This document shows positions 7,701 through 29,665 of a stretch of DNA of 64,000 nucleotides, piece after piece. The stretch spans positions 1-64,000 of the forward strand of contig JAPKDJ010000014.1 of NCBI GenBank assembly GCA_026421245.1, in the 5' to 3' direction. Every line of letters begins with the position of its first letter. Position 1 is the stretch's first letter. This DNA is from Akkermansiaceae bacterium (GTDB taxonomy: Bacteria > Verrucomicrobiota > Verrucomicrobiia > Verrucomicrobiales > Akkermansiaceae). Made by a program: the position numbers and the translations under genes. The notes below the pieces were generated by a model that saw only the letters and a list, made by a program, of their open reading frames with translations, made no database searches and was not told where the DNA came from.

Positions 7701-10700
7701 ATGAAAACGCTGCTGCTTCTACTCACCTTCGCCCTCCCCCTGCTCGGAGCCACCCGACTCTCCCTGAGCGATCAAACCATCGAGCCGAAAACCAAAATCG
7801 AACTCGTTTTTGACAAGGCCATGGTCGCGCCTGAAGCCGTCGGTGAAGGCCTCGACAAAACAGTCGAAAACACCCTTCTCACCATCAAGCCAGCCTGGAA
7901 GGCCAAGCTGGTCTGGCGCTCCCAGAACATTGCCAAACTCGTCCCTCAGGAAGCCCCAAAGGTCGGCACACAATATCAGTTCTCCCTGGCCAAGGCCCTC
8001 AAGTCCCTCGACGGCACCATCATCCCCGCCCAAGAGTTCAAAGCAGCCTCATCCGAATCATTCCGCATCGTCCGGACCCGCCATATCGGCTCCGTTCGGA
8101 CTGGCGGCCGTTTCCTTCTTTTCAACGACAACGTCAACCCGGTCACCGCAGCTCCCTTCTTTCAGTTCGTCAGCCCTGAAACCAAAGACCAGAAATCCCA
8201 GGTCATCGCAGCCCGAACCCGCAAAGCCACCTGGGGAGACCTCGGCAGCCGGTATTACTACCAACCCAACTGGCAGGAACGGTTCACCGAAAAGTCCCTC
8301 CGCAACGCCAATCCGGCACCTGCGGACTCACAGGTGATCAAGCACGCCGTCGTCGTAGAGCCCGTAACGCCCCTCCCCATCGGCAATCAGTGGTCCCTCC
8401 GCCGCCTCGCGGCCCTCCCCAACGCCTCCGAAACTTCTGCCGTCAAGGAAATCAATCACTACATCATCGGAAACGTCGTCCCCTTCACCGCATCTTCCAT
8501 CTACCCTGCCACCACCCCTGACCACCCCCGGACCGTCCGCATCTCGCTCAACCAATCCCTCCCTCTCGATCTCAAACCCGCGGACTTTCTCAAGCACCTC
8601 AAATTCAAGACCGAAATCAAAGAACTCAAGGCAGTCTTCGATCACCGCCGTCAAAACGTCACCCTTCAGGGAAACTTCGCCGACCGCGACACTTACAATC
8701 TCACCCTCGCCAACTCTCTCCACTCAGCGGACGGCCTGCCCCTCTCACAGACTCTCATCAAGACTCTCAAATTCACTCGCCTTTCTCCCAACATCATTCT
8801 TCCCAGCCACGACGAATCCCAACTCGCACGCGGCACCCACACCTACCAAATCCAATCAATCAACAACCAGTCGCTCCGCCTCCGCATCAAGCGCCTTTCA
8901 CCAAAAGATCTCATCCGCACCTCCCTCGGCTACCGGCACTACACCGGCAACGGTCCCGATAACAAACGCATCAAAACCCGCATTGCCCTCCCTTTCGAAC
9001 TCATCACCGGCAAAGTCGTCGCCGACGAGAAAATTACCATCAACACCCCGCTCGACACCACCCACACCCACACCATCAATTGGAGTAACTATCTTCCGAA
9101 AAATCAAAACAGCGGCGCTTTCTTCGTCTCGATCACCGGTACCAAGGCCGACCACCCCGACCTCAAACGCTCCAAGGAAAAAATCGTCCAATCCCTCGTT
9201 CAGCTCACCGACATCGGCCTCGCCTGGAAGCTCACCGACGACTCAGCTCTCCTCTACGCCTACTCCTGCGAAACCGGCAAGGGCCTCCCCGGCGTCGAGT
9301 TCGCCCTTTTCGGTGAAGATGCCCTTCCCTTCGAAAAAGCCAGCACCGAAGCCGACGGCACCGCAACCCTCCCCCGCAATGAGAAACACCGTCAACTCCG
9401 CGCCCGATTCAAGGGCGACACCATCATCATCCCCTTCGATGACGCCCTCCCCACCGTCTCAATGTGGCGATTCCCCGTCAACTTCGAGCGGGGCAAGGCT
9501 CCCCACAACCGTCGCCTCGTTGACCTCTTCACGGATCGAACTCTCTACCGCCCCGGCGAAACCATCCACCTCAAGGGCCTTGTTCGTCATCTGAAAAAAG
9601 ACAACCTCCACCTCCCCACTTCCATCAAACCAAAGATCACCATCTCCGACCCCATGCGTCGCGTGATCCTCGAGAAAGATCTGACGCTCTCGACCACGGG
9701 ATCTTTCGACCTCACCCACACCCTCCCGGAAAACACCGTCGGAAACTACAAATTCACCCTCTCCTGGCCAAAGGAAATTGAAGCTGCCGAGGGCATCGAA
9801 GACTACTGGGAAAAACGAGCCGCCAAAAAATCAGCCACCTTCACCCATCGCGTCTCTGTTCAGGAATTCAAACGGAACACCTTCGAGCTAGAATCCACCC
9901 TCACCGACAAACTCGCTTACTCTCTTAACGCCAAATATTTCCAGGGCACCCCTCTCTCGAAAGGCAAAGTCCGTTGGTATTTCAACGCCAACCCCACCGG
10001 ATTTTACCCGCCCAATCACCGTGACTTCCTCTTCGGCGATCATCGCGGATACGATCCCGATTACTGGAATCACTACTTCGGCTACACCGATGACAATAAC
10101 TCCACCGACCGTAAAGGATCACACTCAGAAAACGGCGAAACCGAACTCGATGACTCCGGCAAGCTCGCCATGGACTTCCAACTCCCGGATCTCAAGTTCC
10201 CGACGCCACGCCGCACTTCTGTTCAAAGCGAAGTCATGGACGCCAACAGTCAGACACTTGGTTCATTTACTGCCACCACCATCCACTCGTCTGACTTCTA
10301 CCTCGGCCTCCGCCGCCAGGACCAAATCACCCGCGTTAACAAGGAAATCCCCTTCCAAATCGTCGCCGTGAATCAGAAGGGCCAACTCCACACCGCCCCC
10401 ATCAACGCCACTCTCACTGTCGAACGCGAGGTTAACACTCAGACCAAATCAAAAGCTCCCAACGGACGCATCGTCATTAAAAATGAAGCGTCCCTCGTCC
10501 CCCTCTCCACTCGTGGGATTACTCTCCCTGAAGGAAAGCTCGACCTTCCCTTCACCCCCACTGAATCAGGCAAACACTTCTTCACCCTCACCACCAAGGA
10601 CGCCTCCGGCCGTGCCATCAAGACCATCGTCACCCGCCAAGTCTACGGCACCGACGAATACCCCTGGGCCTACGAAAACGGGATGCGCATCAAACTCGTC

Positions 10701-13403
10701 CCCGAGAAGAAACGTTACCTCCCCGGTGACACCGCCCGCATCCTCGTCCTCTCCCCCATCGAAGGCGAAGCTCTCATCACCGTCGAACATCAAAAAGTCA
10801 CCCGAAAGTTCCGCACCCAACTCACCCTCGACAATCCCGTCATCGAAATCCCCCTCAAAGAAGAAGACGCCCCCAACGCCTTCGTTTCCGTCCTCGTCAT
10901 CAAAGGCTCGGCCGATTCCAAACGCAAAAGCCCCGAGCCCCAACTCCGTCTCGGTTACTGCGAACTCACCGTTGATCCCTCCTCTTCCCGCCTCAATGTT
11001 GATCTCGCCACCACCCAAAGCGAAACCCGCCCCGGTGAAATGATCGAGGTCTCAGGGACTGTCCTCGGCCACAAATCCCAACCTGTCTCCGCCGCCGAAG
11101 TCACTTTCTACGCCGTCGATGAAGGCACTCTCGCCGTCATGGGATACGACAACCCGGATCCCCTCTCCCACTTCCACCAACCCCGTGTGCTTCGCATCCT
11201 AAACGGAACCTCGCTCAACAACTTCATCCCCGAGTCCGTCAAGGAACGCATGTTCGGTAACAAAGGCTTCATCATCGGCGGCGGTGAGGCCGACGCGCTT
11301 TCAGCGAGGGGCGAAGATGAGCAGGATCCAGCCCGCTCCGACTTTAACCCGACCGCCACCTGGATGCCCACGCTGATCACCGGCAAAGACGGCTCCTTCA
11401 AGGCCCGCTTCAAAGCCCCCGACACCCTCACCCGCTACCGCCTCATCGCCGTCGCCCACCACGGCACCTCCCGCTTCGGCACCGGCCTCGGCGAGGCCCT
11501 CGTCAACAAGCCCGTCATGCTCGAACCTTCACCCCCTGCCTTCGCCCACGAAGGCGACCGCATCCGGGTCAAAGCCCTCCTCCAAAACACCACCAACACC
11601 CTCGGCGTTTGGAAAGTCTCCCTCAAGCTAGACTCCACCACCTCCTCCGCTGACCAAATTCTCACTTCCGACGTTCCTGTCGAAGCAAAGGGCCAAGCCA
11701 CCGTCGAATTCGACGTCACTTTCGCCAACACCGGCACCGCCAAATGGACTTGGACCGCCGTCCCCTCTGCCACTGGCTGGGGACCAACACCACCCACGGA
11801 CATCGCTAGACTCTCCGACTCCGTCGAATCCACCTTCGAAGTCCGCTACCCCATGCCCCTCCTCCGCGAGGTCCAATTCGTCACCTTCAACGACCCCGCC
11901 AAACAGCACAACCTCCTCGATGGTTTCTCCAAAGAACTCGCCGAAGGCCGCGGCCACCTCGAAGTTGAATTCGCCCGCTCCCGCCTCCTCGAAGCTGCCG
12001 GAGCCATCGACTACCTCCTCCGCTACCCCTACGGCTGCGCCGAGCAAACGACCTCCTCCACCATCCCCTGGATCGCCGCCAAAAACCTCCGCCACCTCTC
12101 TCCTGGCTTCCAGAAAAAGTCCGTCACCGAAATCGACAAAGCCATCCAAGCCGGAGCCGACCGCCTCCTCGGCATGCAAACTTCCGATGGCGGCATCGCC
12201 TACTGGTCCGGCGGCCGCACCTCCTCTGCCTGGGCCACCTCCTACGCCGCCCTCGGCCTCGTCATGTGCCAGGAAGCCGGAGCCAATGTCCCCCAATCCT
12301 CCCTCGATCAACTCGCCAAATTCCTCTCCTCTAGCCTCCGCGGCATCACCGGAATCAAGTCCGACTACGACGCCGAAAACTACGCACGCAGCCTCTACGT
12401 TCTCGCCCGCCTCGGCAAACCCGAGCACGCCTATCAAGCCAAGCTCCACGAAAAATTTAAGAACGACGAATTCCCTCGTTCCGCACGGGCTTTCCTTGCC
12501 CTCGCCGTCCATGCCTCAAAACGACCTATGTGGGGAGAAATCCTCATCCTCCCTGTGAAATCTGAGCCCGCCACCGGCTACTGGATGCCTTCCCAAAATT
12601 CCGACGCCTTCGAACTCCTCGCCTGGTCCACCGTCCAACCTGACTCACCCGAATGCGAAGCTGCTCTCACAAAACTCCTCGCCAAACGTTCCCGGCACGG
12701 CCACTGGAACACCACCTGGAATAACGCTTGGTCCCTCCTCGCCATGAGCACCTACGCAAAGACCCACGAAACCTCCAAAGAAGATATCCACCTCATCATC
12801 CAAACCTCCGACGGCCCTCAAAAAGTCACGATCCCCAAAGACAAAGCCTCCCACACCGTCAAACTCCCCCTCGAAGGTGGCTTCAAACTCCTCGCCACCT
12901 CCGACGCCCGCACCTACGTCCACACCACTCTCGCCTCAAAACCAAAAATCGCGCCGGTCCAACCCGTCTCCAAAAATGGTCTCTCCGTCATTCGTACGTA
13001 TGAGCGCGTGAAATCCGACGGAACCTCCGAACCTTTGACCGATCCCAAGGTTGGTGACCTCGTTAAAATCACCCTCACTGTCTCCCTCCCCGCCCGCGAT
13101 ATGCGCTACCTCGCCATCGACGACCCCCTTCCCTCATCTTTTCAGGCTATCAACACCGACTTCCAAAGTCAGGCCGGTCGCGTGAAGGACAAGAGCAACT
13201 GGAGCGTCTCCCACCAGGAAGTCCGCATGGATCGAGTCCTCTTCTTCGTTGATCACCCCCGACGCTCCAGCAACGCCACCATGACTTACCATGCCCGAGT
13301 CACCCATCCGGGCGAAATCTTCGTCCCCTCCACCAAAGTCGAGGAAATGTATGACCCCGCAAGCTTCGCCCTCGGAGCCACTCAAAACCTCACCGTAAGA
13401 TGA
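7701..13403 (+). CDS. Bacterial alpha-2-macroglobulin, thioester type
   Basis: 1900 residues, somewhat longer than E. coli YfhM. The protein traps proteases attacking the periplasm through a bait region and a reactive thioester. An N-terminal signal peptide (MKTLLLLLTFALPLLGA) has no lipobox cysteine, so unlike YfhM it is probably not a lipoprotein. The thioester motif 'YPYGCAEQT' is intact, with the cysteine at about residue 1446, followed by a helical TED domain ('LLGMQTSDGGIAYWSGG'). The 'LFTDRTLYRPGETIHLKG' segment is the typical MG3-type signature of the family. An AGGA lies just upstream of the ATG. It is first in a run with a propeller protein and pbpC, the classic partner that repairs the wall after breach. 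Confidence 0.95.
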   Translation: MKTLLLLLTFALPLLGATRLSLSDQTIEPKTKIELVFDKAMVAPEAVGEGLDKTVENTLLTIKPAWKAKLVWRSQNIAKLVPQEAPKVGTQYQFSLAKALKSLDGTIIPAQEFKAASSESFRIVRTRHIGSVRTGGRFLLFNDNVNPVTAAPFFQFVSPETKDQKSQVIAARTRKATWGDLGSRYYYQPNWQERFTEKSLRNANPAPADSQVIKHAVVVEPVTPLPIGNQWSLRRLAALPNASETSAVKEINHYIIGNVVPFTASSIYPATTPDHPRTVRISLNQSLPLDLKPADFLKHLKFKTEIKELKAVFDHRRQNVTLQGNFADRDTYNLTLANSLHSADGLPLSQTLIKTLKFTRLSPNIILPSHDESQLARGTHTYQIQSINNQSLRLRIKRLSPKDLIRTSLGYRHYTGNGPDNKRIKTRIALPFELITGKVVADEKITINTPLDTTHTHTINWSNYLPKNQNSGAFFVSITGTKADHPDLKRSKEKIVQSLVQLTDIGLAWKLTDDSALLYAYSCETGKGLPGVEFALFGEDALPFEKASTEADGTATLPRNEKHRQLRARFKGDTIIIPFDDALPTVSMWRFPVNFERGKAPHNRRLVDLFTDRTLYRPGETIHLKGLVRHLKKDNLHLPTSIKPKITISDPMRRVILEKDLTLSTTGSFDLTHTLPENTVGNYKFTLSWPKEIEAAEGIEDYWEKRAAKKSATFTHRVSVQEFKRNTFELESTLTDKLAYSLNAKYFQGTPLSKGKVRWYFNANPTGFYPPNHRDFLFGDHRGYDPDYWNHYFGYTDDNNSTDRKGSHSENGETELDDSGKLAMDFQLPDLKFPTPRRTSVQSEVMDANSQTLGSFTATTIHSSDFYLGLRRQDQITRVNKEIPFQIVAVNQKGQLHTAPINATLTVEREVNTQTKSKAPNGRIVIKNEASLVPLSTRGITLPEGKLDLPFTPTESGKHFFTLTTKDASGRAIKTIVTRQVYGTDEYPWAYENGMRIKLVPEKKRYLPGDTARILVLSPIEGEALITVEHQKVTRKFRTQLTLDNPVIEIPLKEEDAPNAFVSVLVIKGSADSKRKSPEPQLRLGYCELTVDPSSSRLNVDLATTQSETRPGEMIEVSGTVLGHKSQPVSAAEVTFYAVDEGTLAVMGYDNPDPLSHFHQPRVLRILNGTSLNNFIPESVKERMFGNKGFIIGGGEADALSARGEDEQDPARSDFNPTATWMPTLITGKDGSFKARFKAPDTLTRYRLIAVAHHGTSRFGTGLGEALVNKPVMLEPSPPAFAHEGDRIRVKALLQNTTNTLGVWKVSLKLDSTTSSADQILTSDVPVEAKGQATVEFDVTFANTGTAKWTWTAVPSATGWGPTPPTDIARLSDSVESTFEVRYPMPLLREVQFVTFNDPAKQHNLLDGFSKELAEGRGHLEVEFARSRLLEAAGAIDYLLRYPYGCAEQTTSSTIPWIAAKNLRHLSPGFQKKSVTEIDKAIQAGADRLLGMQTSDGGIAYWSGGRTSSAWATSYAALGLVMCQEAGANVPQSSLDQLAKFLSSSLRGITGIKSDYDAENYARSLYVLARLGKPEHAYQAKLHEKFKNDEFPRSARAFLALAVHASKRPMWGEILILPVKSEPATGYWMPSQNSDAFELLAWSTVQPDSPECEAALTKLLAKRSRHGHWNTTWNNAWSLLAMSTYAKTHETSKEDIHLIIQTSDGPQKVTIPKDKASHTVKLPLEGGFKLLATSDARTYVHTTLASKPKIAPVQPVSKNGLSVIRTYERVKSDGTSEPLTDPKVGDLVKITLTVSLPARDMRYLAIDDPLPSSFQAINTDFQSQAGRVKDKSNWSVSHQEVRMDRVLFFVDHPRRSSNATMTYHARVTHPGEIFVPSTKVEEMYDPASFALGATQNLTVR

Positions 13404-13609
13404 CCCCGCAAGGAACCCCAACGGAGCGCACTCAATCAAGGCATCGCCCTAGATTGATCATCGACCCGCCCCATGGGCAAGCTCATTGCTCCGCTTCCCT
13501 CAAAGCTCACCTGCCGCCCTCTCCACAAATCCCGCCTTGCTTCTTCCACAAACTAAAATTTAGTGAAGATTCGCGTCGATTCGCCATCCCCTTCATTCAT
13601 AATCATCTC

Positions 13610-14764
13610 ATGAAAGTCCTTCCTCTTTTCTTCCTGACCGCCACCGCCCTCTTCGCAGCGCCCCAAATCAAGATCACTCCCACCTTCGAAAACCAAAAAC
13701 TCAAACTCCCTGTCGCCCTCGCCATCCCATCCGACAACTCCGAACGACTCTTCCTCGTCCAGCAGTTCGGCAAGATTACGATCCTTCCCACGGACCGCAC
13801 TTCGTCCAAGGAAATTACCTTCCTCGATCTCACGGACCGCCCTCTCATTGAAAAGGAATTCGAAGAAGGCCTCCTCGGCCTCGCCTTCCACCCAAACTAC
13901 GCCAAGAACCGTAAGTTCTACATCTACTATACCCTTCAGGATCCCAAGCACACCGTGATCAGCGAAATGCAGACCTCGGCCACCGATCCCAACAAGGCCG
14001 ACCTCTCCACCGAACGCGTCCTGCTTGAAATCCCCCAACCTTTCTGGAACCACAACTCAGGTAACATCCTCTTCGGACCCGACGGCTACCTCTACATTTC
14101 CATCGGAGACGGCGGCAAATCCAACGACCTCCAGCGGTTCTCTCAAAACACTTTCGTCTACAACGGAAAAATTCTTCGTATCGACGTCAACACCCGTGCC
14201 GGAAATCGACCCTACGGCCTCCCGGACGACAATCCCTTCCTCAACAAGCCAGGTCACCATCCCGAAATCTTCGCCCTCGGCCTTCGCAACCCCTGGGGCC
14301 TCACCTTCCACCCTGCCACTAAGGAACTCTGGGCCGCCGACGTCGGCCAAGGCGCTTGGGAAGAAATCAACATTATCAAGAAAGGCGGTAATTATGGTTG
14401 GTCTTTTGAAGAAGGCACCCACCCCGCCAATGCCCGCGATGACCAGCCCTCTAAGGCAATAAAATTCATCGACCCCATCCATAAATACGACCGCCTCAGC
14501 GGCATCTCCATCACCGGCGGACTTCACTATCGCGGCAAAGCCGTCCCCACCCTTCAGGGCCAGTATCTCTATGGCGACTGGGGATTCGGCAGCCTCTGGG
14601 GCCTCGGATACGAAAATGGAAAAAAGACGACCAACACCAAGATCTTCGCCCGCACCAAGGAGAACGAAAAATTCCGCCCCACCGCCTTCGTCGAAGATGC
14701 TGAAGGCGAACTTCTTATCCTCTCCCACGATCACAAAATCTACACCCTCTCGCCCAAAAAATAG
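13610..14764 (+). CDS. Secreted PQQ-dependent sugar dehydrogenase-like protein (GSDH propeller)
   Basis: 384 residues starting at the ATG of MKVLPLFFLTATALFAA, a clear signal peptide; the frame is open further upstream but that extension is not protein-like. The mature part matches the glucose/sorbosone dehydrogenase beta-propeller family: 'LFLVQQFGKI', 'GLLGLAFHPNY', 'HNSGNILFGPDGYLYISIGDGG', 'ALGLRNPWGLTFHP', 'DVGQGAWEEIN' and 'NYGWSFEEG'. The HNSGNI histidine and the 'RNPWG' arginine region are the usual PQQ and substrate contacts. The protein would oxidise an aldose or alcohol in the periplasm if PQQ is available; no PQQ synthesis genes are seen. It lies between alpha-2-macroglobulin and pbpC, 8 bases before pbpC. 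Confidence 0.88.
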   Translation: MKVLPLFFLTATALFAAPQIKITPTFENQKLKLPVALAIPSDNSERLFLVQQFGKITILPTDRTSSKEITFLDLTDRPLIEKEFEEGLLGLAFHPNYAKNRKFYIYYTLQDPKHTVISEMQTSATDPNKADLSTERVLLEIPQPFWNHNSGNILFGPDGYLYISIGDGGKSNDLQRFSQNTFVYNGKILRIDVNTRAGNRPYGLPDDNPFLNKPGHHPEIFALGLRNPWGLTFHPATKELWAADVGQGAWEEINIIKKGGNYGWSFEEGTHPANARDDQPSKAIKFIDPIHKYDRLSGISITGGLHYRGKAVPTLQGQYLYGDWGFGSLWGLGYENGKKTTNTKIFARTKENEKFRPTAFVEDAEGELLILSHDHKIYTLSPKK

Positions 14765-14772
14765 CTCATGAA

Positions 14773-16989
14773 ATGATTCGTCGCCCGTCCATCCCGCGCT
14801 TTGCTCCATGGCTCATTCTCCTCCCGCTCCTTCCCCTTTTGGGACCTCTGCCGGAAAAGTTGCAGGACCCGCCGGAGCCGCACGGGGTGCTTTTGGATCG
14901 TAACGGAAAAGAGCTCACCCACTTCCCGCGCGAAGACTACTTCCGCCACCAACCGGCCTCACTCGACGAGATCCCAGACCACCTCATCAAGGCCACCCTT
15001 GCTGCCGAGGACAAACGCTTCTTCGAACACCCCGGCATCGACTACGCCGCCACCGCCCGGGCATTGTACGAGAACACTCGTAGTATCCGCATCACCTCCG
15101 GAGCATCCACGATCACCCAGCAACTGATCAAGATCTCCACTCCGAAGGAAAAACGGACCTTCTGGAAAAAAACCTCTGAAGTCTTCACCGCCCGCCGTCT
15201 CGAAACCCGCTGGTCAAAGGACGAAATCCTCACTGCTTACCTCAACCGACTCGACTACGGTTCCCACCGCCAGGGCTGTGCCGTAGCCACCCGCTTCTTC
15301 TTCGACAAACCTCTCGCCGACCTTTCTCTCGCCGAATCCGCCCTCCTCGCCGGACTCCCCCAGGCCCCCTCTCGGCTCAATCCGCTCCGCAACCCTGCGG
15401 CAGCTCTTGAACGCCGCAACTGGATCCTCGACCGCCTTCAATCCGAGTTCGACTACCAGCCCGCAACCATCGACCAAGCCAAGTCCGAACCTCTGCTCCT
15501 AGCTCGGCGCGCGATTCCAAACCCCATTCCCCATCTCACCACAAGGTTCTCGGAAGGAGCCCGCCTCAGCATCGACTCGGGGCTCCAACGTGAAACTCAC
15601 CAAATCCTCAACGACGAACTGGCAAAACTCCGCGAAAAGAACGTCCAGCATGGCGCCATTGTCGTCGTCGAAAATGCCACCGGGGAAGTCCTCGCCCTTC
15701 ACGGATCTTCCGACTTCACCGGCAGCAACAGCGGACAGATCAATGGAGCCCTCGTTCCCCGTTCCGCCGGCTCCACCCTCAAGCCCTTCACCTACGCCCT
15801 CGCCTTCCAAAACCAAGGTCTCTACCCCGGCACCATCATCGCCGACATCCCCACCGATTATCAAACCGAGGAAGGCCTCGATGCTCCGAAAAACTACGAC
15901 CGCCGCCACCACGGCCCTGTCTCCATCCGCCACGCCCTCGCCAGCTCGCTCAACGTCTCCGCCATGCGCATGCTCAACCAAATCGGTGGCCCCGAACCTC
16001 TCCATTCCCTTCTGACTGAACTCGGCCTCACTCTCCCCCGCAAAGCCACCGAATACGGCCTCGGCCTCACCATCGGAAATGCCGAAGTCTCCCTCCTCTC
16101 CCTCACCAATGCCTTTGCCACCCTCGCCCGCCTCGGCAAACACCTCCCAACCACCTTCTTTCATGATGAAACCGGAGATCCCTCTTACCTCCTATCCCAG
16201 GAATCCTGCTACCTCATCGCTGACATCCTCTCCGACAATCAGGCCCGGGCCGGGGCCTTCGGCACCAATTCCGTCCTCCGCCTCCCCTTTTCTTGCTCCG
16301 TCAAAACCGGCACCTCCTCCGACTTCCGTGACAATTGGTGCCTCGGTTTCACTGCCGATTTCACCGTCGGCGTCTGGGTCGGCAACTTTGATAACTCTCC
16401 CATGGCCGGCATCTCCGGCGTCAGCGGAGCAGGCCCCATTTTTCACCGCACGATGCTCGCATTACACGAAGAAAAGGAAGCGAGCTTTCCAAAACAGCCC
16501 GCTTCCCTCGCCTCCATCTCGGTTGACGAACGCACGGGTCACCATTTTCCCATTCCACCCGAATCATCCACCCCTTGGCACAAAAAGGAACTCTGTCCCC
16601 GAGAGCACCTCCCCCTTCCGGTCTCCTCCCAGAACTACGGCCCGCAGAACCGGGCCCTCCTCTCCCGGCAATTCTCCGAGTGGTTTCAATCCGCCGACAA
16701 CGCCAAATCCCACGCCTTCGCTCTCACTGACTCAAAACCCGTCACCCGCCAGAGTCTCCAGTTCCTCACCCCCCTTCCCGGAGCCACTTACTACCTCGAC
16801 CCCGAACTCCCCGGAACTACCAACCAGCTCCAGCTCACTTCCAACCTCCCCGATGTCACTTGGTCTTCCGAAACTCTCACGATCAAGAACGACAAAGCCA
16901 CCCTCATCCCCGGCACCCACCAGATCCACCTCTCCCACTCCAAGAGCAAGCAAAACATCACCGGCAAAATTAGGGTCGAAGAACTCTAG
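14773..16989 (+). CDS. pbpC: Penicillin-binding protein 1C
   Basis: 738 residues; peptidoglycan glycosyltransferase with a transpeptidase domain. An N-terminal membrane anchor (WLILLPLLPLLGPL) precedes the GT51 domain with 'AAEDKRFFEHPGIDY', 'GASTITQQLIK' and 'RLETRWSKDEILTAYLN'. The transpeptidase motifs are SxxK in 'AGSTLKPF' (Ser334), SxN in 'ASSLNVSA' and KTGT in 'VKTGTSSDFRD'. The C-terminal 90 residues form the BiPBP_C domain found in PBP1C. Pairing with an alpha-2-macroglobulin gene is conserved in many Gram-negatives and suggests wall repair after host or competitor attack. It begins 8 bases after the propeller gene, so the two are probably co-transcribed. Confidence 0.95.
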   Translation: MIRRPSIPRFAPWLILLPLLPLLGPLPEKLQDPPEPHGVLLDRNGKELTHFPREDYFRHQPASLDEIPDHLIKATLAAEDKRFFEHPGIDYAATARALYENTRSIRITSGASTITQQLIKISTPKEKRTFWKKTSEVFTARRLETRWSKDEILTAYLNRLDYGSHRQGCAVATRFFFDKPLADLSLAESALLAGLPQAPSRLNPLRNPAAALERRNWILDRLQSEFDYQPATIDQAKSEPLLLARRAIPNPIPHLTTRFSEGARLSIDSGLQRETHQILNDELAKLREKNVQHGAIVVVENATGEVLALHGSSDFTGSNSGQINGALVPRSAGSTLKPFTYALAFQNQGLYPGTIIADIPTDYQTEEGLDAPKNYDRRHHGPVSIRHALASSLNVSAMRMLNQIGGPEPLHSLLTELGLTLPRKATEYGLGLTIGNAEVSLLSLTNAFATLARLGKHLPTTFFHDETGDPSYLLSQESCYLIADILSDNQARAGAFGTNSVLRLPFSCSVKTGTSSDFRDNWCLGFTADFTVGVWVGNFDNSPMAGISGVSGAGPIFHRTMLALHEEKEASFPKQPASLASISVDERTGHHFPIPPESSTPWHKKELCPREHLPLPVSSQNYGPQNRALLSRQFSEWFQSADNAKSHAFALTDSKPVTRQSLQFLTPLPGATYYLDPELPGTTNQLQLTSNLPDVTWSSETLTIKNDKATLIPGTHQIHLSHSKSKQNITGKIRVEEL

Positions 16990-19553: not shown

Positions 19554-23488
<3,935 letters not shown>

Positions 23489-24356: not shown

Positions 24357-25625
24357 TCAACCGGCAATCTTACTCCAAACGATCATCGTCGTTCTAACAG
24401 CCAGCACGCAGGCCACCACAAACCCGACCGAACAAATTCCCAAGATCCAGCGCGGAACCTTCCGTTCTCCGATGAGATCCTTCCGCGTTCCGAGATAGAG
24501 CAAGGCTCCCGCCAGCATCGGAAGGCCCAACACCGTGAGCGCTTGAGCAAAGGTAATCAATCCGACCGTCTCAGAAGCCCCCGAAAGCGACAACGCAGCC
24601 ACCAGCATACCGATCAGCAAAGCAAGGCACGTTAATCGTCGCGGCATCACGTCCGACAAACGCCATCCCTTGCCCAGACTATCTGACAGGATAGTCCCAC
24701 CAATCACCGCATTCACCAGAAAGGAGCTAAAGGCACCCGCCATAATCCCTAAACTGAAAATCACCTTCGCGCTCTTTCCGAACAAGGGTTCCAATTGCCG
24801 GGCTACGTCACCCACGCTCTTCAATTCCACCGTCTCGAGCCGTCCATGGAAAGTCAGTACGGAAGTGATGAGGATGAAAGAAGTCACTCCTCCTAAAACA
24901 CAGATTCCAAAGATTGAATCACGTAACCCTTCCCGCCAGTCGGCCAATTTCCACCCCTTCTCGCGGACTAGATATCCTTGGTAAAAAGCTCCGCCAATCG
25001 AGAAGGTCGTACCAATCATTCCCAACAGCGGGATTAGGTCCCGCTTCCCCTCCTTCACTTCTCCGCCCACTGCTGGAGAACCGATTGAACCATACAGGAC
25101 CACGATGAAGTTGCAGGTGAAGGCCAGAATCATGACCATCACCAAAACCTTCATGAGCCTCTCGATCTGTGAGTAGAGACTGCGAATACGAAAGAGGCAG
25201 AAAACAACGAAGAGATTGATCACCAACAACACTCCAAGCTTCGGCCCAAATCGGGTCAAATGTGTTCCGTCGCCGACATCTTCAAAGAGTGGCTCCAATC
25301 CCGCGATGATTGCCAGATTGTTGCTCGATTGAAACAAGGCCACCACCAAAAATAAAACCATCCCGACAAACAAGGAAGCCCCGCGCCCAAGACGAGCCGC
25401 CAGTTCCTCGCAGAGACTCCGCTCATAGGTCACCCCAAGGCGCGCTGCGAGAGCGACCATACCGATCATCAGAAAAGTTGACAGAGCTAGGACGAACCAG
25501 GCCGGAAACCCAAAGTCAGCTCCTACCTTTGAGCTCGTCAAAATACTCCCCGGCCCCAAGACCACGGCTGCAATAATAATGGTCGGGCCAATCTTCCCGG
25601 TTAGCTTTTTCAATCGTTCTATCAT
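24357..25625 (-). CDS. Nramp-fold transporter lacking canonical metal-binding motifs
   Basis: 422 residues with about eleven membrane segments. The order of segments and 'LGVTYERSLCEELAARLG' after TM2 fit the Nramp family. In true Nramps TM1 has DPGN and TM6 has MPH. Here TM1 reads 'VLGPGSILTSSKVGADFG', with GPGS in place of DPGN. TM6 reads 'IGTTFSIGGAFYQGYLV', with no Met-Pro-His. The known metal ligands are therefore absent and the cargo is probably not Mn or Fe. It is the last gene of a minus-strand operon and its ATG overlaps the nagA stop by four bases, suggesting a role with amino sugars. That role is inference. Automatic annotation would call it a divalent metal transporter. Confidence 0.85.
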   Translation of the reverse strand: MIERLKKLTGKIGPTIIIAAVVLGPGSILTSSKVGADFGFPAWFVLALSTFLMIGMVALAARLGVTYERSLCEELAARLGRGASLFVGMVLFLVVALFQSSNNLAIIAGLEPLFEDVGDGTHLTRFGPKLGVLLVINLFVVFCLFRIRSLYSQIERLMKVLVMVMILAFTCNFIVVLYGSIGSPAVGGEVKEGKRDLIPLLGMIGTTFSIGGAFYQGYLVREKGWKLADWREGLRDSIFGICVLGGVTSFILITSVLTFHGRLETVELKSVGDVARQLEPLFGKSAKVIFSLGIMAGAFSSFLVNAVIGGTILSDSLGKGWRLSDVMPRRLTCLALLIGMLVAALSLSGASETVGLITFAQALTVLGLPMLAGALLYLGTRKDLIGERKVPRWILGICSVGFVVACVLAVRTTMIVWSKIAG

Positions 25626-26536
25626 CTTGCTTCTCCGATCACGGTTCGTGGGTTCTCAACAATCACCTTCCGAATCTCAGCCTCGCTGAATCCCAATTCT
25701 TGCGAAAGATTATCGGCAATTCGCGGCATCGTCACGGTCGATCCAATCAAGTGACTCCCGTCCGGCGCCCGTGCCACCAAATCCGATCCGATCCTCACAT
25801 CCCGTCCGAGAAAGCGATAATCACCCGGACCCATGCGGGCCGCCGCAATGGCATCCGTCACCATCACGATTTTTCCAATGCCAACAAGATCCAGATAGTT
25901 GCGTAAGGTCGCGAACGGCACATGAGCTCCATCAGGGATAAAGCTGATCCACAGTTCTTCACGAAGAGCCAGCACCCGTTGAATGATATTATCGTGGCGA
26001 TTCAAATTCATCGGGCACCCGTTACCGAGATGCGTAAACATCCTCAGCCCGGCATCGATGGCCCCTCGTAGCTCTTCAAAGGTGGGGTCACAGTGGCCAG
26101 CAGCCACGCATACGCCCTTTTCGGTCAAGTGCTTTGTCACCGAAAAACCGGTATCGCGCTCGGGAGCAAGAGTCACGATCCGGGTCAACCCTTCCGCCGC
26201 ATCAAGAAGACGATCAGCCACCGAAACTTCGGCAACCCGCGCATGCACAACAGGATGGGCTCCGATAAAACCTAGACTCTCATTCAAGAATGGGCCCTCA
26301 ATATGAAACCCTCGAATCATTTCCGACCACTCCGGATCTTTCTCCCGCAACCTCACCAAACGCTCAATACGCCGACACATGACATCAACATCGTCAGTGA
26401 TGATCGTTGCCAAAACCCCACCCACGCCATCCTCTTTCAAAGCAGCGCACACAATCGCCAGACTTTCGGCGTTCAGATCATCGCCGTTAAAATCAACACC
26501 CGCATATCCGTTTGTCTGTAAATCGAAGGATTTCAT
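25622..26536 (-). CDS. nagA: N-acetylglucosamine-6-phosphate deacetylase, short form
   Basis: 304 residues, against about 380 for typical NagA: it begins directly at '[18 protein letters not shown]', so the small beta domain formed by the usual N-terminus is missing. The barrel motifs are present: 'GFHIEGPFLN', 'AAGHCDPTF', 'THLGNGCP', 'IPDGAHVPF' and 'VTDAIAAA' with the catalytic aspartate. It removes acetate from GlcNAc-6-P, giving GlcN-6-P for NagB. The start overlaps the preceding oxidoreductase stop by four bases and the stop overlaps the transporter start by four bases, so translation is coupled throughout the operon. Confidence 0.93.
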   Translation of the reverse strand: MKSFDLQTNGYAGVDFNGDDLNAESLAIVCAALKEDGVGGVLATIITDDVDVMCRRIERLVRLREKDPEWSEMIRGFHIEGPFLNESLGFIGAHPVVHARVAEVSVADRLLDAAEGLTRIVTLAPERDTGFSVTKHLTEKGVCVAAGHCDPTFEELRGAIDAGLRMFTHLGNGCPMNLNRHDNIIQRVLALREELWISFIPDGAHVPFATLRNYLDLVGIGKIVMVTDAIAAARMGPGDYRFLGRDVRIGSDLVARAPDGSHLIGSTVTMPRIADNLSQELGFSEAEIRKVIVENPRTVIGEAR

Positions 26537-27681
26537 TTCTCTTCCCTTCGTTCAAAAAACTCCCGGGCTCGTAATTCATCAAGCGGCAAGTCTACCGGCG
26601 TTCTCTCAGCCGCTGAGATCTGAGCCGCCCAACCTAAGTCCGCCACGGCGGCCGAGTTCACAAAACTCAGAAACGATTGCTCGCCCTTCCGAATGCACTC
26701 CAAAAAATGAGCCACACATTCTCCGGTCTGATGCTTCATCACATCGCCGCTATCCGGAGTGCTTGTGTCGACCGGCCATTGATGTGCCTCCAGCCCCTCT
26801 GCCTCACATCGTGAAGCATCCAAAGGATACACCCATCGCCCCTCTGTCGATTTCTCCGACCAAAAGCGAACCTTTTGGGGACGATCCAGCTGCGAATCAA
26901 AAATCAAGCCGCCCTCCGTGCCATGGATATTGTGATAGGCATCATAACCGTTTGCCTGATCGACGTTTCCAAAACACAGCCCGGCCGCTCCGTTGCTGAA
27001 CTCAATGTGCAAATTCCAAATCGCGGGGATATCAAAGTCCCGGCGATGCACCGTGCTACTCGTGGCATAGACCCGCACCGGGGTGGCCCCTTGCTCGGCC
27101 ATGATGTTCAACATCACCGAGAGCGAATGAATAATGCCCATTCCAATCGCATCTCCCATTCTCTCTCCCGAAAGCTTCCACACCTTGTCATCTGCGATGT
27201 TGATGGGATGCCGGTAGTTGACTTGAATCTGCGTAATAGCCCCAAAGACTCCTTCTGCAGTCATGCGCCTGATCCGATTCTCTAGCGCATCAAAATTCAT
27301 GAGGTAGTCGACAAAAGTAACCTGCCCGGGATTGGCCCTCTCCAATTCGATTTGCTGTAAAAAATCATCGTAGCGCGTCGCACAGGGCTTCTCACAGAAG
27401 ACATGCTTGCCCGCCTTAAGGGCTGCGATGGCCTGGAGGCCGTGTGCCTCATTGGTGCTACAGATAAAGACCGCATCGAGAGCAGGCGACGACAACATGC
27501 TTTCGTAGTCGCTAAAATAAAGATCCTCACTCAAGCCCAGCTCCGTGAGCACCTCTACCGCTCGGTCACGCCGGCGTTGATGGACCCCGACAATCGAGAC
27601 CTCCTCTTGTTCGGTCAGTCGCTTTAATAAGGTCGCTCCCATCCAACCCGCCCCCACCAATCCAACTCCAATTGAACTCAT
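26533..27681 (-). CDS. Gfo/Idh/MocA-family oxidoreductase
   Basis: 382 residues from the ATG at 27681, which overlaps the nagB stop by four bases; a longer upstream reading is possible but starts inside nagB. The Rossmann motif is '[11 protein letters not shown]' and the family motif '[11 protein letters not shown]' carries the conserved lysine. The C-terminal half is the usual open-face beta-sheet domain ('[14 protein letters not shown]'). No Tat or Sec signal, so it is cytoplasmic. Members oxidise or epimerise sugars with NAD(P), and some are NAD-dependent glycosidases (GH109). Its place between nagB and nagA suggests it acts on an amino-sugar derivative, but the substrate is not readable from the sequence. 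Confidence 0.9.
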
Positions 27682-28433
27682 TGGGAAACCCCTCCTTCGT
27701 TCAGCAGAATTGCAGCCGGACCATCGAGATACAAATGACAATCCTCATGCTCCTGCAAGATCGAAGCGGGAACCTTCGCAGTAACCTCACCCTCTACCGC
27801 ATTTCGCACCGCTTCAGATTTACGCTCATCCGGAACGGTGCAAATGATGGACCCGCTCTTCATGATCTGACGAACCGACATCGAGATCGCCTTTTCAGGC
27901 ACCGCTTCCAGACTTGGAAACCACCCCTCCCCGAACTGCTGCTGGCGACAAGCTTCATCCAAATCCACCACCAGGTACGGCTTCACGGTGTCAAAATCGG
28001 CCGGGGGATCATTAAAGGCAAGATGCCCGTTTTCACCAATCCCAACAAAAGCCACATCAATCGGAGCTTCAGCGATCAATTCTCCCATCCGACGACATTC
28101 CGCCTCGGGGGCGTCCTCTGCATCAATGTAGTGAAAAGCTCGAACCGGACCTGGCAAGCGATCCTCAAACCTTTCCTTGAGATATTTTCGAAACGATGCC
28201 GGATGCTCAATCGACAGGCCCACGTATTCGTCCAAGTGAAATACCGTCACCTTGTCCCATTCAATTCCTACCTCCTGCGTGAGGGCCTCCAGCATTTCAA
28301 ACTGCGAAGCACCCGTCGCAACGATGATATTGACCTCTCCCATTTCCCGGAGAGATGCCCGCATTTTCACCGCGCCAGCTGCGGCTGCGGCGACGCCCAT
28401 CTCTTCCTTCGTATCAAACCGCTGATAGTTCAT
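27678..28433 (-). CDS. nagB: Glucosamine-6-phosphate deaminase
   Basis: 251 residues. It converts glucosamine-6-phosphate to fructose-6-phosphate and ammonia, feeding amino sugars into glycolysis. Visible motifs are '[13 protein letters not shown]' (phosphate loop), '[11 protein letters not shown]' with the catalytic Asp, and '[15 protein letters not shown]' with the His. It is the first gene of the nagB - oxidoreductase - nagA - transporter operon and is divergent from a sialidase-like gene 100 bases away. An AAGGAGGT lies about 18 bases before the ATG, farther than normal for a ribosome binding site. Allosteric-site residues cannot be judged by eye. Confidence 0.94.
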
Positions 28434-28534
28434 TGACGGGGATGGTGAAGGACCTCCTTGTCAGGTCAATCTCATTGCTCGACACCTTGTCTTTACCATC
28501 GACATCTCACTTCCCCACCCGACATCCTTCCATC

Positions 28535-29665
28535 ATGACTTTTCCGCGCCGACACTTTCTCAAAAACACCACCGCCCTTGGGCTTGCCGGATCACTCGGT
28601 TTTAACCTAAAGCTTCACGCCTCCCCTGCTTCAACCCTCCTTAAAATAGAAACCATCAGTCAACTGCCACATCTCTATCACGGTTGGCCAACCTTGACCC
28701 GTCGAGCCAACGGCCAACTTCTCGTGGTTTGCTCCGGGGGCCGGGAACAACATGTCTGCCCCTTCGGGAGGGTTGATCTCCAAAGATCCGACGACAACGG
28801 CAAGACTTGGACTTTTCCACGGACCATCCTCGATGGCCCCATTGATGACCGCGATGCCGGAGTCCTCGAGACCGCCAAAGGTTCCATCCTCGTCACAACC
28901 TTCACCTCTCTCGCCTATGCCAGCCACATCCCCAATGACACCCGCCGCGCACGCTGGCTCGCCGCCCACAATCGCCTCTCGGAAGAAGAGCGTAAAAACG
29001 AACTCGGTCAATGGATGGTTCGCTCAACCGATGGCGGAATCACTTGGTCCGAGCGCTACCCCACCATCGTCAACAGCCCCCACGGCCCCACCCAACTCTC
29101 GGACGGTCGCATCCTCTATGCCGGGAAAAAGCTCTGGACCGAAGGAAAAGAAATCGGGGTCTGTGAATCGCGCGACGATGGCCAAACATGGAAGTGGCTC
29201 GCACCCATCCCAACCCGGGAAGGCGACCATCACCGCGACTACCATGAGCTCCATGCCATCGAAGCCGCCAATGGCAGCCTCATTGTCCACATCCGAAACC
29301 ACAACAAGGCAAACTCCGGGGAAACCCTCCAAAGTGAGTCCCTCGACGGAGGCAGGACGTGGTCCATCCCACACTCAATCGGAGTTTGGGGTCTCCCCTC
29401 TTTCCTCACCCGCCTTCGCGATGGCCGTCTCCTGATGAGCTACGGTCATCGCCGCAAGCCATTCGGAAACCAAGCCCACGTCAGTGCTGACCATGGAAAA
29501 ACGTGGTCGTCGCCGCTGATAATCTCCGGCGATGGACCCTCCGGCGACCTAGGCTACCCGAGCACAGTTGAACTCGAGGACGGAACTCTCCTCACTGTTT
29601 GGTATGAGAAAACAGCACAGTCCAAGTTTGCGGTCCTGCGTCAGGCGCATTGGAAACTCACGTGA
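28535..29665 (+). CDS. Exported sialidase-like protein with five Asp-box repeats
   Basis: 376 residues. The N-terminus 'MTFPRRHFLKNTTALGLAGSLGF' is a twin-arginine signal, so it is exported folded. Five Asp-box repeats (SxDxGxTW) are visible: SDDNGKTW, STDGGITW, SRDDGQTW, SLDGGRTW and SADHGKTW, as expected for a six-bladed sialidase propeller. The usual N-terminal FRIP motif is not clear; 'YHGWPTLTRRANGQLL' lies where it would be, without the RIP arginine. It may therefore be a sialidase with another specificity or a different propeller hydrolase. Divergent from nagB with a shared 100-base promoter region, consistent with supplying amino sugars to that operon. No sialic acid lyase is clearly present. 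Confidence 0.85.
   Translation: MTFPRRHFLKNTTALGLAGSLGFNLKLHASPASTLLKIETISQLPHLYHGWPTLTRRANGQLLVVCSGGREQHVCPFGRVDLQRSDDNGKTWTFPRTILDGPIDDRDAGVLETAKGSILVTTFTSLAYASHIPNDTRRARWLAAHNRLSEEERKNELGQWMVRSTDGGITWSERYPTIVNSPHGPTQLSDGRILYAGKKLWTEGKEIGVCESRDDGQTWKWLAPIPTREGDHHRDYHELHAIEAANGSLIVHIRNHNKANSGETLQSESLDGGRTWSIPHSIGVWGLPSFLTRLRDGRLLMSYGHRRKPFGNQAHVSADHGKTWSSPLIISGDGPSGDLGYPSTVELEDGTLLTVWYEKTAQSKFAVLRQAHWKLT

Follow-up and report, generated by a model that had tools for sequence, protein, structure and literature searches.

We analyzed a 64,000-nucleotide window (positions 1 to 64,000 of contig JAPKDJ010000014.1, assembly GCA_026421245.1) from an Akkermansiaceae bacterium, in which a gene related to the Nramp metal transporters is the last of an operon with the order nagB–Gfo/Idh–nagA–Nramp-like gene, all on the minus strand. 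An initial annotation, made from the sequence by itself, had described this operon and had proposed that the Nramp-like protein, devoid of metal ligands, carries an amino sugar or another organic substrate. All four genes were found where that annotation had placed them, and they are listed here together with two motifs in transmembrane helices (TM) 1 and 6.

24357-25625, minus strand: Nramp-related transporter of 422 amino acids (aa), GPGS (TM1)/TTFS (TM6) type (PF01566, E 5e-49; AlphaFold model; Foldseek)
25539-25556, minus strand: TM1 motif GPGSIL, residues G24 to L29, at the canonical DPGN site (sequence and 62-row alignment)
24990-25010, minus strand: TM6 motif TTFSIGG, residues T206 to G212, at the canonical A-x-x-M-P-H site (sequence and 62-row alignment)
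25622-26536, minus strand: nagA-like N-acetylglucosamine (GlcNAc)-6-phosphate deacetylase, 304 aa, lacking the usual N-terminal portion (TIGR00221, 160.5 bits; 1ymy, E 2.6e-29)
26533-27681, minus strand: Gfo/Idh/MocA oxidoreductase, 382 aa (PF01408, E 2e-22)
27678-28433, minus strand: nagB-like glucosamine-6-phosphate deaminase, 251 aa (PF01182, E 6.5e-20; TIGR00502, 129.4 bits; PDB 2bkv, E 1e-33)

All three junctions read as four-base ATGA overlaps, as had been reported, and the operon contains no other transporter gene, in keeping with the earlier statement that it holds no other sugar uptake gene. The start of the Gfo/Idh gene was taken as the ATG at 27681; the listed open reading frame (ORF) is longer, from TTG 27741. 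The names NagA and NagB are putative, resting on similarity, and both proteins score under the curated NCBIfam cut-offs (225.65 bits for TIGR00221 and 236.9 bits for TIGR00502). The best PDB match of the NagB-like protein is the glucosamine-6-phosphate deaminase 2bkv. The NagA-like protein had no Pfam match at E 0.001; the solved NagA 1ymy aligns with its residues 4-301 on chain residues 56-344. It is ~55 residues shorter at the N terminus than a normal NagA, the missing portion presumably being part of the beta-sandwich. The assignment as nagA stands as one by similarity, with the active-site stretches of NagA retained (alignment judged by eye), for a protein that lacks the N-terminal part. 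Many nagA matches across the order likewise begin to align at residue 1-4 and come from open frames slightly longer than 300 aa.

The Nramp-like protein matched PF01566 with 167.6 bits against a cut-off of 29.8, over positions 3-355 of the 357 in the profile. An AlphaFold (AF2) model built from 62 sequences (mean pLDDT, 83.6; pTM, 0.86) predicts the Nramp/LeuT fold. When the model was compared with the PDB using Foldseek, EleNRMT (7qia, top match, TMq 0.76) and DraNramp led (TMq 0.72-0.77), the Nramp of B. fragilis came next, a YcsG model stood at rank 16, and APC amino-acid transporters appeared from rank 30. The canonical DraNramp, with TMq up to 0.77, was also matched by sequence (6d91, E 5.5e-10). 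The APC transporters BasC, LAT, and AdiC share the LeuT fold with the model at TMq of about 0.55-0.68, and amino-acid transporters of that family have a glycine-rich, unwound TM1; none was found in the PDB sequence search up to E 0.1. The NCBIfam MntH/nramp models all scored under their cut-offs (74 versus 430, 43 versus 272.5, and 32.6 versus 50 bits).

TM1 of the protein reads VVLGPGSILTSS and TM6 reads IGTTFSIGGAFYQ. Alignment with DraNramp maps D56 to G24, N59 to S27, A227 to T206, M230 to S209, P231 to I210, and H232 to G211. The DraNramp numbering follows in part a 2026 preprint (PMC12873925). The replacement of DPGN by GPGS in TM1 and of MPH by S-I-G-G in TM6, both noted initially, was confirmed by this alignment, and the known metal and proton ligands are absent. 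Across 62 aligned members of the clade defined below, none of the five metal-site positions carries an acid, His, Met, or Cys: Asp is replaced by G, Asn by S or T, Met by S (61 members) or V (1 member), and His by G, A, or T. The earlier conclusion that the residues coordinating Mn or Fe are gone therefore extends to the known side-chain ligands of all 62. Retention of the motif in 62/62 relatives also ruled out a canonical MntH with a sequencing error. G24, P25, G26, I28, Q99, S101, N102, N103, E155, K159, T206, N305, G309, Q361, and T364 are invariant, and S27 and S209 are each kept in 61 members. The TM3 stretch at residues 92-109 contains an acid in none of the 62 and a Met at 106 in 6; the canonical TM3 acids fall on different columns in three alignments, one of them based on our reading of the register in PMC10606218.

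These features place the protein in the Nramp superfamily, outside canonical Nramp and NRMT. Where a canonical Nramp/MntH has DPGN, A/CxxM-P-H, and a TM3 acid, this protein has GPGS and TxxS-I-G and lacks the acid, as the preprint reports for Nramp-related proteins generally (PMC12873925). The Mg-transporting NRMTs keep the TM1 Asp in the signature DxxG-TxxA/T (PMC8806188); here the corresponding residues are GxxS-TxxS. The Thr at the A227 site is common to both, and NRMT identity was ruled out by the absent aspartate. GPG is present in 62/62 clade members, a glycine TM1 motif such as that of PxpT and YcsG/MntG to judge by their group name, G-motif 3 (PMC12873925). Both of those proteins resemble the window protein in belonging to the PF01566/NRAMP family and in their catabolic operon setting. 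Their neighbors are the 5-oxoprolinase genes pxpABC, unlike nagB, Gfo/Idh, and nagA here, and by neighbors and motif the window protein is separate from this oxoprolinase-linked type. The same genome encodes two more PF01566-like proteins, in frames of ~600 aa (G000:C90:33688-35007 and G000:C176:21206-21478; L002-L004), of which only the C90 protein exceeds the Pfam cut-off.

A tree of 77 proteins set the 62 members of the clade on one side of a branch with support of 100. The tree came from a quick search, its outgroup did not fall on one side, several long branches meet (a program warning), and oxoprolinase-linked plasmid relatives took the place of YcsG and PxpT. Where named, clade members come from Verrucomicrobiota and Planctomycetota, plus one metagenome-assembled genome labeled Terriglobia (L105). 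Five haloarchaeal GPGS proteins were placed next to the clade with moderate support (83), and the oxoprolinase-linked proteins, with L033 and L123, were placed apart on another branch. The four oxoprolinase-linked proteins, all haloarchaeal, have GPGT, TTVVGYN or TTIVGYN in TM6, E99, A305, and V or I at position 159, in contrast with GPGS, TTFS, Q99, N305, and K159 in the clade; the five GPGS relatives have K or R at 159. In a phylum-wide sample, the clade was present in only 3 of 288 genomes and so does not characterize the phylum as a whole. These three include the window's own genome and one whose clade gene has internal TGA and TAG codons (L128, G273:C1:3240473-3241561), which may reflect a pseudogene or an assembly error.

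The operon link with amino-sugar genes recurs. Scanning genome contigs yielded 139 relatives; among the best 80 loci, with flanks of up to 10 kb, 39 had a nagA or nagB relative nearby (nagA at 38, nagB at 33, and a gene closely related to this Gfo/Idh at 18). This is a lower bound, because 7 of the other 41 loci hold less than 3 kb upstream of the gene. Gene order among the linked loci varies (nagB-gfo-nagA, nagB-nagA, or nagA-nagB), and a PF01261 isomerase gene precedes nagB in 8. We also sampled 386 genomes evenly from the order, a set that overlaps in genomes with the 80-locus collection. Clade genes (73, after removal of four weaker second-type matches) were present in 71 of these genomes, which ruled out a lone oddity of one genome, and in 44 of the 71 a nagA lay ≤800 bases upstream on the same strand and contig (in one, G053, with nagB between the two). 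This adjacency exceeds chance. At the threshold used, nagA was detected in 150 of the 386 genomes, including 67 of the 71 with a clade gene versus 83 of the 315 without (Fisher p 9e-28, with relatedness ignored). Among 27 genomes searched from the window's genus, 14 had both genes, 11 had neither, 1 had only the Nramp-like gene (a genome 80% complete), and 1 had only nagA (cut at a contig end). The association of same-motif homologs with nagA or nagB, on which the initial annotation had staked its hypothesis, is accordingly borne out by the loci, the genomes, and the largely matched presence and absence within the genus. Among 40 genomes whose clade gene is not nag linked, 35 have a nagA relative elsewhere, 15 of these at ≤42% identity only. 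In one metagenome-assembled genome (G023; L047, L014, and L032), frameshifts seem to break up gfo, nagA, and the Nramp-like gene alike; since three adjoining genes are affected, assembly error is likelier than decay.

Where the Nramp-like gene is absent or elsewhere, no consistent replacement was found next to nagA in 20 regions, in a check by crude ORF picking and hydropathy that missed the nagA ORF itself in three (L191, L192, and L203). CstA lay near one nagA (L194) and an SSF symporter near another (L209); a 6-helix protein adjoined the nagA of L190 and a 4-helix protein that of L195, and a 9-helix protein lay four genes off in L199.

Outside the clade, thirteen plasmid regions with Nramp-related genes were opened. 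All five haloarchaeal GPGS proteins have a Gfo/Idh gene within two genes, and on a Haladaptatus plasmid (L115:4129-12133) the GPGS-type gene is next to heparinase II/III, Gfo/Idh, and sulfatase genes. The four haloarchaeal GPGT genes (L116, L118, L122, and L124) are directly followed by hydantoinase/oxoprolinase A and B genes and preceded by a CopG-type regulator; these loci are candidate oxoproline or hydantoin uptake operons labeled as metal transport. The Neorhizobium gene has a dihydrodipicolinate synthase (DHDPS)-family gene and a LacI regulator close by. No evident catabolic neighbor was seen in the Pseudoalteromonas and Rhizobium plasmid regions, and the Agrobacterium plasmid protein is of the canonical DPGN type.

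One further gene lies beside the operon, divergent from nagB.

28535-29665, plus strand: BNR_2 repeat (sialidase-like) protein (PF13088, E 2e-22 on ORF 28355-29665)

Its longest ORF begins at 28355; the in-frame ATG at 28535, which opens a signal resembling that of the twin-arginine translocation (Tat) pathway, is the likelier start. At 7 loci of the closest group, a BNR_2 homolog is found in the corresponding position, and the window gene is a neighbor that perhaps stands outside the system. BNR genes are also near Nramp-related genes in L074 and L120. A scan for promoters and terminators gave a result no better than shuffles. Elsewhere in the window, the plus strand encodes a GH2 beta-galactosidase with a laminin-G-like insert (19856-23488) and, at 7701-16989, a bacterial alpha-2-macroglobulin followed one ORF on by a transglycosylase/transpeptidase, which we take to be a PBP1C-like pair.

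Taken together, we consider an organic substrate likely. More specifically, we put at roughly 55% the probability that the protein is an inner-membrane secondary transporter of the Nramp/LeuT fold whose substrate is an amino sugar (GlcNAc or another) or a derivative, with a central site that would no longer suit, or would never have suited, a metal ion. Alternating access would proceed via the unwound, glycine-rich GPGS of TM1 and TTFS of TM6, and the conserved amides Gln99, Asn102, Asn103, Gln216, Asn305, and Gln361 may hold a neutral or zwitterionic organic molecule. The sugar would enter unphosphorylated and receive its phosphate from a ROK-type kinase whose gene lies elsewhere, after which NagA would deacetylate it and NagB deaminate it; Gfo/Idh, or the PF01261 isomerase in other lineages, may convert a side form of the sugar. 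Import without phosphorylation fits the window's own genome (93% complete), since it contains three ROK matches and no match to the EIIC component of the phosphotransferase system; no BcrAD/BadFG match was found there either.

Organic substrates in the wider family are supported by the catabolic neighborhoods of relatives and by the genetics of PxpT, an NRAMP-family protein of Corynebacterium glutamicum that is 50% identical to YcsG and required for growth on 5-oxoproline; its authors did not exclude metal transport (PMC13274462). To that extent the organic-substrate hypothesis of the initial annotation holds, with the nagA/nagB association behind it; the amino sugar itself is what we infer beyond this, and some members stand beside other sugar-type genes. 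In the CC-licensed PMC literature, we found no paper that connects Nramp proteins with nag genes or with the uptake of sugars.

Several observations weigh against an amino-sugar substrate. To our knowledge, no transport assay of any clade member has been made, and the lining of the site is predicted from alignment to known Nramp positions. The operon contains no kinase gene. The 44 nagA-adjacent genomes are related and hence are not 44 independent events, and in the other 27 of the 71 nagA was elsewhere (23) or not found (4, three of them <85% complete); because of these 27, the initial description of the gene as "locked" into the operon is too strong. Nor does nagA require the Nramp-like gene, since 83 of 315 genomes have nagA alone. 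Three of the 14 genomes with both genes in the window's genus (G002, G008, and G017) have only a distant nagA (36-38% identity) that is not adjacent. Among 40 genomes whose clade gene is not nag linked, 35 have a nagA relative elsewhere, 15 of these at ≤42% identity only. At four loci (L056, L061, L069, and L083; Pfam was run on three), a PF01261 isomerase gene directly precedes the clade gene with no nag genes between, and L108 has epimerase-like and DHDPS-family genes behind it (L110 is alike by similarity). Seven clade genes (L043, L044, L045, L050, L057, L059, and L099) are head-to-head with a gene that its sequence identifies as that of an ATP-binding cassette (ABC) ATPase, behind which a large protein is encoded; in L043, the one locus scanned, that protein carries a type 6 binding domain. 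The substrate of this ABC system could hint at that of the clade carrier. Finally, YcsG of Bacillus subtilis, of a G-motif group, was reported as an Mn importer and renamed MntG (PMC10448178).

Some of these loci speak for an organic substrate other than an amino sugar, such as a sugar acid, a 3-keto sugar, sialic acid, or an N-acetylated or cyclic amino acid, with the nag pathway one of several fed. The isomerases of the four unlinked loci are 64-75% identical to those of nag-linked L076 and L085 (the two tested from the cluster of 8 loci with the isomerase ahead of nagB), five loci (L087, L090, L095, L105, and L108) have a Gfo/Idh gene adjoining or one gene off without nag genes, the genes behind L108 and L110 point the same way, and haloarchaeal relatives lie near Gfo/Idh and fumarylacetoacetate hydrolase (FAH) genes. 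The BNR and DHDPS-family neighbors make sialic acid a lead only. However, nagA is the commonest close upstream neighbor found and is present elsewhere in the genome in 23 of the 27 remaining cases, and the metal-site motif is identical in nag-linked and unlinked members of the alignment; these points speak against this reading. We regard this explanation as unlikely, if the best placed of the alternatives.

Less probable again, yet a serious rival, is a divalent-cation importer with a site of neutral oxygen ligands that feeds NagA with metal. NagA enzymes require a divalent metal, PF01261 isomerases often use metals as well, and the nearest folds are those of metal transporters; the Gfo/Idh and DHDPS-family neighbors, on the other hand, are metal independent. 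Metals are shared cell-wide, and an import gene behind one enzyme would therefore be odd. The known side-chain ligands are gone from all 62 members, with no acid in the TM3 stretch, and Mg-transporting NRMTs retain the Asp that the clade lacks (PMC8806188). We have not lowered this explanation further, since the case of MntG shows that Mn may still be possible with a glycine TM1 motif: overexpression of MntG raises cell Mn, and MntR binds the promoter of its operon. The MntG authors add that earlier oxoproline work did not completely exclude a polar effect (PMC10448178).

Two further explanations are highly improbable. An exporter or channel for a pathway product (ammonium or acetate) would fit the release of acetate and ammonium by NagA and NagB and the four-base overlap with nagA, but we know of no exporter or channel precedent in the family, and uptake is the role of PxpT, the relative for which genetics bear on an organic substrate (PMC13274462). 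Neutral hitch-hiking would mean that related lineages inherited the operon as one block and that the linkage carries no functional information. In its favor, the genomes are related, and nag-linked members group together on the tree (11 changes of the label versus 23.5 when shuffled). Against it, well-supported branches force 7 or more changes, the neighboring position of nagA or nagB persists through variation in gene order, and presence and absence of the two genes largely match in the window's genus.

An amino-sugar carrier in this position would bear on the history of the family. According to the preprint, Nramp-related proteins, which lack the metal and proton residues and include the named G-motif groups, are paraphyletic and branch below canonical Nramps (PMC12873925). 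The metal site may therefore be a later gain in another lineage, and the "re-purposed" Nramp fold of the initial annotation, unsupported as worded, may be backwards. Tentatively, and with more doubt than confidence, we suggest that the subfamily marked by GPGS, Q99 and N102 (TM3), E155, K or R159, TTFS (TM6), and N305 comprises sugar and amino-sugar carriers of Verrucomicrobiota, Planctomycetota, and haloarchaea and that, with PxpT, it shows basal Nramp-related proteins to carry organic catabolites, metal transport being a later specialization of one branch.

Nramps are a textbook metal-transporter family, and the preprint describes most Nramp-related groups, all but the NRMT-like group and that of MntG, as entirely uncharacterized (PMC12873925). 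The recurrent amino-sugar operon setting provides a concrete, testable guess at a substrate for one of them. If true, it would widen the chemistry of the family from metal ions to sugars, bear on whether metal transport in the Nramp family is ancestral or derived, and put right automatic annotations as "divalent metal transporter," such as those given to haloarchaeal plasmid genes.

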